A DNA stretch of 43,174 nucleotides from Synechococcales cyanobacterium bin31.maxbin.ball.101. Its GTDB lineage: Bacteria; Cyanobacteriota; Cyanobacteriia; Leptolyngbyales; Leptolyngbyaceae. Position 1 is the stretch's first letter. Each line of letters opens with the position of its first letter. Positions 16,853 through 22,018 of this stretch are shown piece by piece. The stretch lies in contig JAAFJU010000027.1 of NCBI GenBank assembly GCA_013298165.1, positions 1 to 43,174 on the forward strand, written 5' to 3'. Below the pieces are notes generated by a model. That model was given only the letters and a program-made list of their open reading frames with translations. It was not told where the DNA came from and ran no database searches. Both the position numbers and the translations under genes were made by a program.

Positions 16853-16915
16853 TCGTGTGATGCGATCGTTTAGCCGATGCGTTAAAATAGTAGGAAAGCA
16901 TTTAGGATAGTGACG

Positions 16916-17176
16916 ATGAGTATCACGCTAAAGCCGGAGCAAGAACAACTAATCCAACATCAGGTGACATTGGGACGGTTTAAGTCTACTGATGAAGTCT
17001 TAGAAAGTGCTCTGAGGCTCCTGGTTGAGCAATATCAAGAGTATGAAGCTTGGGTCGAAGAAGTCCGGGTTAAGGTTGATGAAGGCAAAGCTGAGGCCGA
17101 TCGGGGTGAAGTGCTTCCCTTAGAAACTGTCATGGCACAGTTACAGCAGAAGTTTCAGCAAGCACGGGAGCATTAA
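16916..17176 (+). CDS. ParD-family type II antitoxin
   Basis: An 86-aa protein. Its N-terminus (SITLKPEQEQLIQHQVTLGRFKSTDEVLESALRLL) fits the ribbon-helix-helix DNA-binding fold of CopG/ParD antitoxins. The C-terminal acidic coiled region would wrap the ParE-type toxin encoded next, 2 bp downstream. An upstream in-frame GTG (16910) exists, but ATG 16916 has the better ribosome site. Such antitoxins usually repress their own promoter together with the toxin. Confidence 0.88.
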   Translation: MSITLKPEQEQLIQHQVTLGRFKSTDEVLESALRLLVEQYQEYEAWVEEVRVKVDEGKAEADRGEVLPLETVMAQLQQKFQQAREH

Positions 17177-17178
17177 GC

Positions 17179-17478
17179 TTGAAGCGTTGTGTCATTACCC
17201 TGAAAGCAAGCCGAGATCTGAACGAGATTTCAGACTATTTTGTGGGACATAATATCGAAGCTGGAGAGCGTCTACTTCGAACGTTTAATGAGAAATGTGT
17301 GAGATTAACTCAGTTTCCCAACATGGGTAAACGTTATCTAGAGATTCATTCGTGGCTACGCGGAATTCCCTTACAAGGCTACATTATTTTTTATGAGGTT
17401 TTGGAAGATGAGATTACGATTTTGCGGGTTGTAAGCGGTCGTCAGAATTTACAGGCATTGTTTGGCGAAAGCGACTAA
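17179..17478 (+). CDS. ParE/RelE-superfamily toxin
   Basis: A 99-aa basic protein with the ParE-type pattern ITLKASRDLNEISDYF, GERLLRTF, LTQFPNMGKRY, GIPLQGYIIFYEV and ITILRVVSGRQN. Family members poison DNA gyrase or cut mRNA. The ParE subtype is favoured by the ParD partner. The start is TTG 17179, which follows the antitoxin stop by 2 bp. The weak start and tight coupling would keep toxin below antitoxin. No truncation is seen. Confidence 0.88.
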   Translation: MKRCVITLKASRDLNEISDYFVGHNIEAGERLLRTFNEKCVRLTQFPNMGKRYLEIHSWLRGIPLQGYIIFYEVLEDEITILRVVSGRQNLQALFGESD

Positions 17479-17595
17479 TCAAGCGACTCTCAACTGAAAG
17501 GCCGATTCCCGTTCCGGGAGGCGTTGCCAAAACCAAACATATTCACCATCTTCATCGTAACGAATTTCGTAGATAAACGATAAGACATCACGGAC
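17479..17595 (-). pseudogene. C-terminal gene fragment carrying the CCCGTTCCGGG repeat
   Basis: An open stretch of 38 codons (VRDVLSFIYEIRYDEDGEYV followed by WFWQRLPERESAFQLRVA) reads like real protein, yet it has no start codon and is preceded by TGA. It converges on the toxin stop. The palindromic repeat at 17503-17522 encodes part of it (RLPERES). A second protein-like stretch (about 17574-17699, plus strand, ending VYGRSSGSPVMVIKMGAFYK) lies beside it. Both are best read as debris of lost small genes; the original family is not recognised. Confidence 0.4.
17503..17530. repeat. Small palindromic repeat, copy 1
   Basis: CGATTCCCGTTCCGGGAGGC is followed by a GCCAA end. The core TCCCG-TTC-CGGGA is a perfect hairpin. 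The same 20-mer recurs at 42590-42609, inside a coding sequence. Confidence 0.8.
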
Positions 17596-17681: not shown

Positions 17682-19781
17682 TCAAGATGGGGGCATTTTA
17701 TAAGACTGGGTAGAGGTTTGGAGTGTCTGGGTGGCGATCGGCCAATTTTGTTGATTCCAAAAGTGCCGTAGGGCTTGATTGCGCCAGTTGGTTTCGACTT
17801 GGAGTTGGGTGATGCCTCGATCGTGAAGACAAGTCGATAATTGCGCTAAAAGCTGTGATCCATAGTATTGTCGTCGCCAGCGCGATCGAATATGTAACGC
17901 TATCACAGATGCTTGACGAGTTGATTTTTCATCTATTTCAGCCATGGCTAAGCCAATGAGTTCGTCATGATTAAAGAGTCCGAGTTTGATAATTTGTGGG
18001 TTTTCTAAGACTGCTAGCCAAGGCACTTCTAGAGGCGCGATCGGAAAGGCTTCGATTTCAGAGAGCCGATCGGGCGTAAGTTCAATGATTTTGATTAAAG
18101 GGTGACGTTCAGATTTTCCCTGTAAGAGGGACCACAATCCTGGCAATGTTGGAATCAATAAAACAACGATCGCAAGAATGCCGGATGCAATCAAATTAGG
18201 CTGTCCCGAACCGGCTAAAAGGCCCACACTCAACAATGAATTATAGGTAACATGGGACATGATGGTCGTAACCAAATCAAATCGAATAAAAAGAAACCCA
18301 TAAACGATCGCGGGAATCAGCAGCTCAATTCCTCGTAAGAAAAAGGGTTCTCGCACATAGGATAAATGGGCAAAGGACCATAGGACACCTGGTATCAGCA
18401 GGGCCAGCCATCGATTACGAGTGATGAGTAGAGCCAGACTGACCCCCACAAGCCTTGCCTCAAGTTCTTCAGTGACACCCGGTCCAATGCCAGAGTCAAG
18501 TGCATTTAAGAAGGGGAATTGAGTACTAAATAGATTGGTATAGTTAAACCCAAAACTCGGAGTCCAAGCGCCAAAGAGTTTGGTCGCGATGACATAGAAC
18601 AATAGCGCGTAACTTAACCACATCCCCCCAAGCAAAATGCCACGACCACTCGATCGGGCTAAGGTGAGCAGCGGGGTCGCCGATCGCGTGAGAATCTTAT
18701 CTTGATAAGGCCAGACTTTTTTAGCCAACCAGCGTCCTCCCGGCCACAGAAAGAAAACAGGCGTGGCATAGTTAAGGGAACTATAAACAATGGAATAGAG
18801 TTGATCTAACCAAAAGACCGTCATGTTCTCGGTGGTGCTATAGCCCATGATGCTGAGGGGCAATGAATTCAAATCACCCAAAATCGAAAATCCAGCAACC
18901 ACTAACGCTGGAATAATCCCTTCTCTCCAAAGAATCTGACCTTTGACCAGGCCAATGGTATAGGCGATCGCCGCACCAATCAAAGCTCCGTAATACCCCA
19001 AGTCATAACTCACTCGATTGATCGTTGAAGCAATATTTTGTTTTTTACTAAACTCCCGACCGAAGTCTTCCGGGATCTTAACCCAATACATATATCGACC
19101 CATTTGATCGCCCTGAACGGTCACAGATAACCGTAATTCAGCTTTACCGACTTTAAACTCACGCCGCTTCCAATCAAAGCTATGGTCTCTCCGCCCACCG
19201 GGATTTTCTCGACTTGATCCACCCATGGATTCCCATTGCGTCAGATCCCAGCCCCGATCGGTTTTTAGGTATTTCTCTGCAATAGCTTTGGCATCTTCTT
19301 GTTTTAATTTTGAACCGGGTCTGGTCTCTTCGATCGTGCGATTAAATCGAATGGGATTGCCCTCTGTGGAGAGTCCAAGGTCATATTCTTCCTGCTGATT
19401 CGGTTTGAACCAGCGGTAATTCCAAGAATAAATCGGGAGCTTTTCTTTTTGGATCAGGTCTTTGGTTTTCTTGACGCCGATGGTTTGTTCTAAATAGAAC
19501 ACCACCTGTCCACCGCGCCCAAAGCTCAAGGCGGATTGATAGGCTTCGGTGGGTTTTACGATCGCTTGCAGGGTACTTTGGGCGATTTGACGGATTTGGT
19601 CTGGGCTGCGTTCGAGCTTGACGGGGAGGCTGTCGTGATCGATTTGCGTCAAGAGAATCGTCGTAATAAATCCAAAAATACCTAGGACTAAAATAATCCG
19701 ATCGAGGGCATGGTTACAGGCTTTGAGAATGCTTTTACAACGGGCACAAAATGTCTGAATCCACGAATTCTGTAGAGGCAT
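17682..19781 (-). CDS. CPBP-family intramembrane glutamic protease fused to a C-terminal GNAT acetyltransferase domain
   Basis: A 699-aa multidomain membrane protein. One N-terminal membrane helix (28-45) leads to an extracytoplasmic region (about 60-250) with a PepSY-like look (AKAIAEKYLK). A multi-helix membrane block (260-550) follows. It holds all three CPBP/Abi motifs: EELEAR (438-443), FAHL (His472) and HVTYN (His510, Asn514), as in Rce1-type proteases. Residues from about 555 to 685 form a GNAT-like domain with the acetyl-CoA-type loop RSRWRRQYYGSQLL and the NxxALRHFWNQQNW ending. Each part is known; the combination is unusual. No partner gene is adjacent, and a long AT-rich upstream region (19782-20019) separates it from the next gene. 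Confidence 0.85.
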   Translation of the reverse strand: MPLQNSWIQTFCARCKSILKACNHALDRIILVLGIFGFITTILLTQIDHDSLPVKLERSPDQIRQIAQSTLQAIVKPTEAYQSALSFGRGGQVVFYLEQTIGVKKTKDLIQKEKLPIYSWNYRWFKPNQQEEYDLGLSTEGNPIRFNRTIEETRPGSKLKQEDAKAIAEKYLKTDRGWDLTQWESMGGSSRENPGGRRDHSFDWKRREFKVGKAELRLSVTVQGDQMGRYMYWVKIPEDFGREFSKKQNIASTINRVSYDLGYYGALIGAAIAYTIGLVKGQILWREGIIPALVVAGFSILGDLNSLPLSIMGYSTTENMTVFWLDQLYSIVYSSLNYATPVFFLWPGGRWLAKKVWPYQDKILTRSATPLLTLARSSGRGILLGGMWLSYALLFYVIATKLFGAWTPSFGFNYTNLFSTQFPFLNALDSGIGPGVTEELEARLVGVSLALLITRNRWLALLIPGVLWSFAHLSYVREPFFLRGIELLIPAIVYGFLFIRFDLVTTIMSHVTYNSLLSVGLLAGSGQPNLIASGILAIVVLLIPTLPGLWSLLQGKSERHPLIKIIELTPDRLSEIEAFPIAPLEVPWLAVLENPQIIKLGLFNHDELIGLAMAEIDEKSTRQASVIALHIRSRWRRQYYGSQLLAQLSTCLHDRGITQLQVETNWRNQALRHFWNQQNWPIATQTLQTSTQSYKMPPS

Positions 19782-20019: not shown

Positions 20020-20622
20020 TCACTTTTGTTGGGACATCCACAAGAGTTTACCTAAAATATCAGCCGTAGGCGGCAATGAATAATCATTCAAATCAACCGT
20101 AATCGTCTTCCCTTCCAATTTCAGAAATCGCCATGCCGTTCCCGTCGTAACACTGCCATAAATGGTTTCGATCGATCGTCCCCGCGCATCATTAAACTTC
20201 TGCGATGCCACCATTTCCGCCGCACATTGCCCTAATCCAGATTTAATATCTGCTTTTTTCGCTTCAATGACGACCAAGACAGGTGCTTCGACAGCGATTT
20301 GTTCCGTTGAGCGGCTGACTAAAAAATCACAATAACCATTCAATCCCGACTCGGGTTCCACATTGAACTCCTCACCCGAAAAGATACTAATCTGCGACGC
20401 CAAAATCTCCTTCACTTCAAACAATACTGGCGCAATGATCGCTTCTGACCTTGCCTTCTCCCCGCCCACCGCCATCGCCCAAGAAATCCCCCGCCGCAGA
20501 CTTTCCTGTAGCCAAGCACTCGGCTCCACAGGCGCAATCTCCGGCAAAAACGGTCCACCCTCGATCGCCCTCAGATCAAATTTTTGTTTAACGCTGGACC
20601 AAGTAAACTCTCGGTACGACAT
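20020..20622 (-). CDS. PD-(D/E)XK nuclease-fold protein, type I restriction R-subunit N-terminal-like
   Basis: A 200-aa stand-alone protein. A helical N-terminus (SEAIIAPVLFEVKEIL) is followed by GYCDFLVSRS and VLVVIEAKKADIKSGLGQCAAEMVA. These supply the Asp and Glu-x-Lys residues of a PD-(D/E)XK active site. A late strand pair (YGSVTTGTAWRFLKLEGKTITVDL) is typical of the cyanobacterial family related to the HsdR N-terminus. There is no helicase domain and no methyltransferase neighbour, so it is not a complete restriction system. It may be a DNA repair, defence or scaffold protein. It is divergent from wecB. Confidence 0.75.
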   Translation of the reverse strand: MSYREFTWSSVKQKFDLRAIEGGPFLPEIAPVEPSAWLQESLRRGISWAMAVGGEKARSEAIIAPVLFEVKEILASQISIFSGEEFNVEPESGLNGYCDFLVSRSTEQIAVEAPVLVVIEAKKADIKSGLGQCAAEMVASQKFNDARGRSIETIYGSVTTGTAWRFLKLEGKTITVDLNDYSLPPTADILGKLLWMSQQK

Positions 20623-20777: not shown

Positions 20778-21890
20778 ATGCCTACCTCCCCCATTACCGT
20801 TTGCATCACCGTCGGCACTCGCCCGGAAGCGATCAAAATGGCCCCCGTCATTCAAGCCTTTAAACGATCGCCCCTGTTCAACACCCAAGTCATCCTCACC
20901 GGACAGCATCGGGAAATGGTCGATCAAGTCATGCAGCTTTTTGAACTGAAAGCCGACTCCGACCTCGCCATCATGCAACCCAAGCAAACGCTTACAGATA
21001 TCACCTGCAGCGCCCTCCGTGGCCTGGAAGAGCTGTTTATCAAACTCAAGCCCGCGATCGTCCTTGTCCAGGGCGACACCACCACCGCCTTCGCCGCCGC
21101 CCTTGCCGCTTTTTATCAAAAAATTCCCGTCGGCCACGTCGAAGCCGGACTTCGCACCGACAACATCTTTAATCCCTTCCCCGAAGAAGCCAACCGCCGC
21201 CTCGTCTCCCAAATCGCCCAACTCCACTTCGCCCCCACCAGCCTCAGCGCCGAAAACCTGCAAAAATCCGGCGTCCTATCCGGCATTCACCAGACGGGAA
21301 ACACGGTGATTGACGCATTGCTGCAAGTCGCCGATCGCAATCCCCCCTGCGACATCCCCGGACTCGACTGGTCCCAGCACCGCGTCATCCTCTCCACCGT
21401 CCACCGCCGCGAAAACTGGGGCGAACCGCTCAATGACATTGCCCAAGGCTTTCTAAAAGTATTAGAAGCTTTTCCCGACACCGCTCTGCTACTCCCGTTG
21501 CACCGAAACCCCACCGTCCGCGAACCCTTAACCGCAATGCTCGGCAGTCATCCCCGCGTTTTCCTCACCGAACCCTTAGACTACGTCGAACTCGTTGGAG
21601 CCATGAAACGATCGTACCTCCTGCTGACGGACTCCGGCGGCATCCAAGAAGAAGCTCCTAGTTTAGGTAAGCCTGTGTTGGTCCTGCGGGAAACGACCGA
21701 GCGGCCCGAAGCCATGATGGCAGGCACCGCGAAACTGATTGGGACTGAAACCGATCGGATCCTGAGTGAGGCGAGTCTTTTGCTCAGCGATCGATCGGCC
21801 TATGATGCCATGGCTGGAGCGATTAGTCCGTTCGGGGATGGAAAGGCCGCCGATCGGATTTTGGGGATTGTGAAGGACTATTTGGCTTAG
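20778..21890 (+). CDS. wecB: UDP-N-acetylglucosamine 2-epimerase, non-hydrolysing
   Basis: Interconverts UDP-GlcNAc and UDP-ManNAc for surface polysaccharide synthesis in the cytosol. The 370-aa protein has the start motif VGTRPEAIKMAPV, TGQHREM, VQGDTTTAFAAALAAFY, HVEAGLRT, FPEEANRRL, HRRENWG, LLTDSGGIQEEAPSLGKPVLVLRETTERPE and the correct length. ATG 20778 is preferred over GTG 20769. The glycosyltransferase 0.5 kb downstream may act in the same pathway. Codon use turns from C-ending to mixed near 21650. Confidence 0.96.
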   Translation: MPTSPITVCITVGTRPEAIKMAPVIQAFKRSPLFNTQVILTGQHREMVDQVMQLFELKADSDLAIMQPKQTLTDITCSALRGLEELFIKLKPAIVLVQGDTTTAFAAALAAFYQKIPVGHVEAGLRTDNIFNPFPEEANRRLVSQIAQLHFAPTSLSAENLQKSGVLSGIHQTGNTVIDALLQVADRNPPCDIPGLDWSQHRVILSTVHRRENWGEPLNDIAQGFLKVLEAFPDTALLLPLHRNPTVREPLTAMLGSHPRVFLTEPLDYVELVGAMKRSYLLLTDSGGIQEEAPSLGKPVLVLRETTERPEAMMAGTAKLIGTETDRILSEASLLLSDRSAYDAMAGAISPFGDGKAADRILGIVKDYLA

Positions 21891-21913
21891 GGTCTGCGTT
21901 TAAATCCTCTCGG

Positions 21914-21991
21914 CCCCCTAAATCCCCCAATGATGGGGGACTTTGAATCCATTCTTTCGTTCCGGTTCCCCCAGAATTGGGGGTTAGGGGG
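21914..21991. repeat. MITE-like inverted repeat (CCCCCTAAATCCCCC type)
   Basis: The outer arms CCCCCTAAATCCCCC and the GGGGGTTAGGGGG end are imperfect inverted copies. Internal segments GGGGGACTTTGA and GGTTCCCCCAGAATTGGGGG match the style of the elements at 28646-28772 and 11640-11702. It sits in the gap between two convergent genes, where it could fold and stop transcription from both sides. Confidence 0.8.
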
Positions 21992-22018
21992 CGGTTCGCC
22001 CGAGTCCCAACCGTCCCC

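Follow-up and report, generated by a model that had tools for sequence, protein, structure and literature searches.

A cyanobacterial membrane protein with PepSY-like, CPBP protease and GNAT-fold parts in one chain

The window analysed here, the whole 43,174-nucleotide stretch, carries on its minus strand an open reading frame that occupies exactly 17682–19781, begins with ATG and encodes 699 residues without an internal stop. An earlier note on this DNA had the position exactly right and left the strand unstated. The gene occurs once in its genome, a 5.39-Mb draft of 356 contigs, and its product joins a PepSY-like region, a CPBP protease core and a GNAT-fold domain, an architecture that is supported by profile matches, predicted folds and conservation in other species. 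The features are listed in Table 1.

Table 1. Features of the gene and its product, with positions in the window and the evidence for each
Feature	Position	Strand	Evidence
Coding sequence, 699-residue PepSY-like/CPBP/GNAT membrane protein	17682..19781	-	ORF translation; single copy in genome
TM1, residues 28–47, N-terminal anchor, N-in by charge	19641..19700	-	hydropathy peak 2.4; charge counts
PepSY-like region, residues 53–240, probably extracytoplasmic	19062..19625	-	AF2 block means 60–88; YpeB 5boi fold match; DUF4901 in orthologs
TM2–TM5, residues 259–400	18582..19007	-	low-confidence model helices; hydropathy peaks for TM2, TM3, TM5
CPBP (Rce1-like, PF02517) core, residues 423–515	18237..18515	-	E 3.9e-7, above cut-off
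Motif 1, E438-E439-x-x-x-R443 (EELEAR, residues 438–443)	18453..18470	-	invariant in three full-length sequences
Motif 2, F470-A471-H472	18366..18374	-	invariant in three full-length sequences
Motif 3, H510-x-x-x-N514 (HVTYN, residues 510–514)	18240..18254	-	H510 and N514 invariant in three full-length sequences
TM10, residues 528–551, runs into tail	18129..18200	-	hydropathy peak 2.33; charge counts
GNAT-fold domain, residues 556–695, probably cytosolic	17697..18116	-	PF00583; Z 14.5 (3g8w), 13.7 (RimI 2cnm); Foldseek E 6.4e-6; low confidence after ~660
Altered acetyl-CoA loop R636-R-Q-Y639-Y-G641	17859..17876	-	Tyr at first Gly position, 4/4 fused proteins

A ParD/ParE-like toxin–antitoxin pair (16910–17478) adjoins the gene, and the other neighbour is a PD-(D/E)xK nuclease-like protein (20020–20622; PADLOC PD_DExK, E 4.7e-52), to which similar DNA is found at many places in this genome and three congeners. 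About 32 bases between the ParE-like and CPBP–GNAT genes (17499–17530) recur in one other contig of the genome and in four contigs of the congener G001; at 21890–22015 lies a dispersed repeat of ~90 bases, of which the window's genome has dozens of copies and G001 a few. In G001 and a further congener, G002, WecB and the genes to its right are kept in order, and the open reading frames left of WecB, in the stretches taken, have no match in the window; the gene sits in a stretch that differs between congeners. As regards an anti-phage role, PADLOC returned no match for the CPBP–GNAT protein.

The central part of the protein matched the Rce1-like/CPBP profile of Pfam with 30.7 bits against a cut-off of 22.4. 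All three CPBP motifs that had been read from the translation (EELEAR, FAH and HVTYN) are present, and E438, E439, R443, H472, H510 and N514 proved invariant when the three full-length fused proteins were aligned. The profile also passed its cut-off in one ortholog (P0002, E 1.8e-5); it was unreported at E up to 1 in the ortholog P0003 and the fragment P0004, though the same motifs are present there. A second structure model, of the core by itself, predicted helices at a mean pLDDT of 42.9, and a sequence search of the core against solved structures gave no match at E up to 1. Between the window protein and its two full orthologs the core is the best-conserved part, with 63–64% identity as against 40–41% in the N-domain and 24–27% in the GNAT domain, which suggests that proteolysis is what stays constant in its function. 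The protease part is apparently intact, and its sequence predicts a glutamic intramembrane endopeptidase. Four other CPBP genes are present in the same genome; BLASTP against open reading frames of at least 150 residues at those loci revealed no paralogue of the fusion, all matches being at chance level (E 0.25 or worse). PMC11980579 describes the CPBP proteases of prokaryotes as largely unexplored.

In the tail, PF00583 (GNAT) matched residues 599–676 (E 1.7e-5, 25.5 bits against a cut-off of 20.7) and the ortholog tails with E-values of 3.6e-9, 7e-7 and 2.7e-7. The proposal of the earlier note that CPBP and GNAT parts share one chain is thus borne out, both Pfam profiles scoring above their curated cut-offs and the two parts following in the same order in other assemblies; because that order recurs, the fusion is more than chance. 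Structure prediction, which had been named as a way to check the tail, gave a GNAT core, with low confidence in the last 30–40 residues, after about residue 660. The predicted tail superposed on 3g8w with an rmsd of 2.3 over 107 aligned residues, RimI scoring slightly lower, and a Foldseek search with the model again led to GNATs, which made up all of the best 50 matches listed.

The canonical GNAT acetyl-CoA loop has the form R/Q-x-x-G-x-G/A. In the fused proteins the loop reads R-R-Q/C-Y-Y-G, so that Tyr replaces the first Gly in all four, and the tail departs from the canonical loop. All 13 related GNAT stretches that fell within the limits of the comparison have Gly at this first Gly position; they come from 12 open reading frames that were chosen by similarity, and this difference is therefore a contrast rather than a census. 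Of the C-terminal GNAT-like acetyl-CoA loop claimed for this protein, the GNAT core, the loop Arg and the second Gly stand, but the first Gly of R-x-x-G-x-G does not. From its sequence we have filed the tail as a GNAT-fold domain rather than a canonical acetyltransferase. The loop change may alter ligand or activity, and Tyr at this position does not prove inactivity; acetylation by the tail is uncertain, since each of the four fused proteins has the altered loop and the charge counts given below put the tail and the protease site on opposite membrane faces. Among the larger parts GNAT shows the lowest conservation, TM1 (20 codons) being about equally variable in the pair of carriers G229 and G367. 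In that pair dN/dS was about 0.06 for the CPBP core, 0.05 for the N-domain and 0.17 for GNAT, rough values given that dS is near saturation, and the GNAT tail is under constraint.

GNAT modules also occur C-terminal to unrelated N-parts at nine of the compared loci (L024, L026, L027, L007, L009, L008, L003, L022 and L025), with a second, weak GNAT stretch in seven of them. The seven open reading frames scoring best against the tail among the compared loci hold two GNAT stretches each, the second weak (domain E 0.021–5.7), and a profile comparison of the tail with one of these seven gave E 9.3e-9. By eye, L024, L026, L027, L007 and L009 have one N-part domain in common, which may be TIGR03032-like, with TPR-like repeats added behind it in L009; L008 has a glycosyltransferase-like part before its GNAT. 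L022 was considered as a further CPBP–GNAT fusion, with a match over model positions 493–663 and four stops, and was rejected as a GNAT gene, tblastn rising above chance in the GNAT stretch only.

The N-terminal region resembles PepSY domains in its predicted fold. Residues 56–240 aligned to the PepSY-containing C-terminal domain of YpeB, 5boi (Z 13.2, rmsd 5.0, 143 residues aligned), the sole such match among the best 50 listed, and PMC10653890 names 5boi as a PepSY structure; a PepSY-type fold is accordingly predicted from one fold match. The Foldseek search with the model showed no match to the N-domain among its best 50 listed. The DUF4901 (YcdB/YcdC) profile, whose cut-off is 27 bits, fell below that value in the window protein (residues 119–174, E 0.023, 15.2 bits) and in P0002 and P0003 (20.1 and 22.2 bits, E 7.3e-4 and 1.6e-4), and passed it in the piece from Leptolyngbya cf. 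ectocarpi LEGE 11479 only (29.3 bits, E 1e-6). The PepSY-like extracytoplasmic region of the earlier note therefore holds as regards the fold match and the DUF4901 match in one ortholog piece; in the window protein itself the profile is below threshold, and the outside location is suggested by charge.

To place these parts relative to the membrane we relied on hydropathy and charge for the helix count, the cavity geometry and the side, because the transmembrane part was modelled poorly. The AF2 model (five rows) had a mean pLDDT of 53.7, with block means of 60–88 over residues 51–240, 56–80 over 561–660 and 26–53 over 661–699, and mostly below 50 through the helices. Model helices, hydropathy and relatives together suggest that there are probably ten helices. 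The evidence for TM4 varies: its hydropathy never peaks above 1.2 in the window protein, whereas P0002 shows a weak peak of 1.22 and the Paenibacillus relative P0007 a clear one of 2.09. With an N-in start, Lys plus Arg residues in the short loops were distributed inside to outside as 13:2, 10:4 and 9:3 in three of the fused proteins, and the Paenibacillus relative had 11:3; helix ends were set by hand for these counts, and the long N-domain loop and the tail were excluded. The counts place the N-domain outside, the GNAT domain inside and the Glu-Glu end of TM6 near the outer face. We infer that the protease site would lie at the outer face and the GNAT domain inside, on opposite sides of the membrane, an arrangement in which the helix count is not certain: one helix more or fewer would turn over the parts behind it. 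There is precedent for an outward-facing CPBP protein in myxosortase, which according to PMC11980579 acts on exported proteins.

The fusion is rare: four of the 388 genomes of the class, the window genome included, carried it. The class search gave 10 matches at E 0.001 or better, comprising the window genome, three with a CPBP part (G229, G367 and G252) and six in GNAT only. In three further sets, which overlap and each include the window genome (58 relatives, 42 genomes from the order, 386 from the phylum), the full protein was found in the window genome only; the other matches (2, 2 and 6, respectively) were all in the GNAT part. The phylum set, which was searched with a profile, thus gave seven matching genomes, the window's along its entire length. 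The GNAT-only matches in other genomes of the phylum were considered as further CPBP–GNAT fusions and discarded, since they are GNATs, often two in a row, alone or behind unrelated N-parts. In the family of G229 the protein is present in three of 63 genomes, the search of its order covering the same 63 and finding the same three. The three other carriers are Leptolyngbyaceae cyanobacterium MAG.088, uncultured cyanobacterium R4_Bin_Bin_126 and LEGE 11479. Two other cyanobacterial assemblies hold the whole fusion (678 and 687 residues, 42 and 41% identical to the window protein); LEGE 11479 has the gene in pieces on two contigs, its GNAT out of frame with the CPBP part. The G229 locus contains Trypco1, a trypsin-like protein and a response-regulator/kinase protein, and the loci of the other two carriers, which together with it form the g103 loci, look similar by eye. 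A small open reading frame lies divergently upstream in the three g103 loci by eye (L004, L005 and L011), identified by Pfam as Trypco1 in L004, and beyond it is a trypsin-like gene in L004 and, by eye, in L005. No conserved partner gene was common to the window, with its ParD/ParE-like pair and PD-(D/E)xK protein, and the g103 loci.

Relatives were also sought among genome contigs, in a scan with two N-domain patterns only, so that relatives without those stretches would escape; another contig scan found no relative, and viral contigs held no stretch matching the patterns. Plasmids gave two records, a Paenibacillus CPBP protein without the tail and an Anoxybacillus protein annotated as CPBP. 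The Paenibacillus cellulosilyticus protein (L020, P0007, 542 residues) is colinear with residues 203–517 (hhalign E 7.1e-14). The tail, whose presence in homologues the earlier note had singled out as a check, is carried by all three of the close relatives found in cyanobacteria, although one has it in another frame, and is absent from this distant one. From this single example it appears that the tail-less form is older and that the GNAT tail was gained in cyanobacteria.

We tentatively propose an intramembrane endopeptidase that faces outward and is gated by its PepSY-like region, with a cytosolic domain that binds acyl-CoA and may be regulatory; this is the likeliest of the explanations weighed, though we hold it with considerable doubt. 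Residues 1–27 would lie in the cytosol and TM1 would export the PepSY-like region (53–240) to the outer face; TM2–TM10 would form the CPBP glutamic intramembrane endopeptidase, its Glu438/Glu439–His472–His510/Asn514 site toward the outer face, and residues 556–695 would return to the cytosol as the GNAT-fold domain. The PepSY-like region would most likely gate the protease cavity, controlling the entry of a substrate that is either exported or in the membrane. From the cytosolic side, the GNAT domain would bind acetyl-CoA or another acyl-CoA via its modified loop and either regulate the protease or serve as a transferase of weak or altered activity. This proposal draws support from the invariant catalytic residues, the high conservation of the CPBP core, the agreement of the charge counts, the precedent of myxosortase and the constraint on a GNAT tail whose loop has changed. 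Against it stand the poorly modelled membrane part, the small number of carriers (four species found, one with GNAT in another frame) and the want of a gene partner common to the window and g103 loci. In favour of gating, the first description of PepSY was as an intramolecular peptidase inhibitor (PMC10653890); the same paper indicates that the PepSY domains of YpeB and CopD apparently do not make this contact with the enzymes they partner, a point against simple gating. In a more specific form, which we consider unlikely, the protein would be a two-faced switch, with a PepSY-like gate outside and an acyl-CoA-sensing GNAT domain inside, such that envelope proteolysis follows the acetyl-CoA state. 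The weak evidence for TM4 lowered our confidence in both the proposal and the switch and raised it for an Rce1-like orientation.

An Rce1-like orientation would open the protease cavity to the cytosol, on the side of the GNAT domain, and let the tail act on substrates at the cavity. The cavity of MmRce1 is described as opening to the cytosol in PMC12067869, and the helix count here comes without a confident model, TM4 being weak by hydropathy; however, the charge counts of all four proteins favour the outward arrangement, and an Rce1-like site between an N-domain outside and a GNAT domain inside would require errors in the helix count on either side of TM6, so that we regard this orientation as quite unlikely. 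The same charge counts bear on the coupling suggested by the earlier note, taken here to mean that an external signal triggers proteolysis and the GNAT domain then acetylates the same substrate, for example at its cytosolic end, both enzymes being active and coupled. That both Pfam domains pass their thresholds, that a GNAT core is predicted, that the loop Arg and second Gly are kept and that the tail is under purifying selection would all fit two working enzymes. The two sites are nevertheless placed on opposite faces, all four fused proteins have Tyr instead of the first loop Gly, and no other large part is as poorly conserved as GNAT; we think a coupling of proteolysis to acetylation fairly unlikely.

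Were the CPBP part to anchor and regulate only, as has been proposed for LyrA/SpdC and LnsB, the chain would be a non-proteolytic scaffold. CPBP proteins without catalytic residues do exist (PMC7387801), yet these residues are absent or diverged in LyrA/SpdC and LnsB and invariant here, which makes such a scaffold very unlikely. We give next to no credence to an accidental fusion or an assembly error joining two genes. The different frame of GNAT in LEGE 11479, where the gene lies on two contigs, could be taken in its favour, but the window and two other assemblies have continuous open frames with their parts in one and the same sequence, and the tail is constrained; because those two assemblies hold the whole fusion, and a third its pieces, we reject an artefact or chance joining. 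The PepSY-gated endopeptidase with a cytosolic acyl-CoA-binding domain is the reading that we tentatively retain. As a natural PepSY-like/CPBP/GNAT fusion, the protein names two candidate control inputs to the protease, and if the altered GNAT domain binds acyl-CoA it would represent a case of metabolic control over intramembrane proteolysis.

A literature search, devoted mostly to papers outside subscription journals and preprint servers, found no CPBP–GNAT fusion by title or opening of the abstract, in line with the remark of the earlier note that it knew of no described function for this architecture; the parts are known and, as far as our searches go, the combination is new. With CPBP/Rce1-type endopeptidases such as MmRce1 and the myxosortase MrtX, the window protein shares EExxxR, the motif-2 His, HxxxN, a predicted many-helix core and a PF02517 match above cut-off; it differs in adding the PepSY-like domain and GNAT, and the orientation described for MmRce1 is opposite to that favoured here. 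The predicted fold of residues 56–240, and the DUF4901 profile that passes its cut-off in one ortholog piece, recall the YpeB C-terminal domain (PepSY, 5boi) and YcdB/YcdC, although YpeB serves a separate cortex-lytic enzyme (PMC10653890), whereas here the region is on the same chain as an intramembrane protease. Likewise, the tail has the fold and PF00583 profile of GNAT acetyltransferases (RimI, AAC(6')) and of the tandem-GNAT proteins of the same phylum, but carries Tyr at the first loop Gly and is joined to a CPBP protease. The Paenibacillus cellulosilyticus protein is alike in its N-terminal transmembrane helix and the long region ahead of its CPBP helices, and differs from the window protein in being without the GNAT tail.
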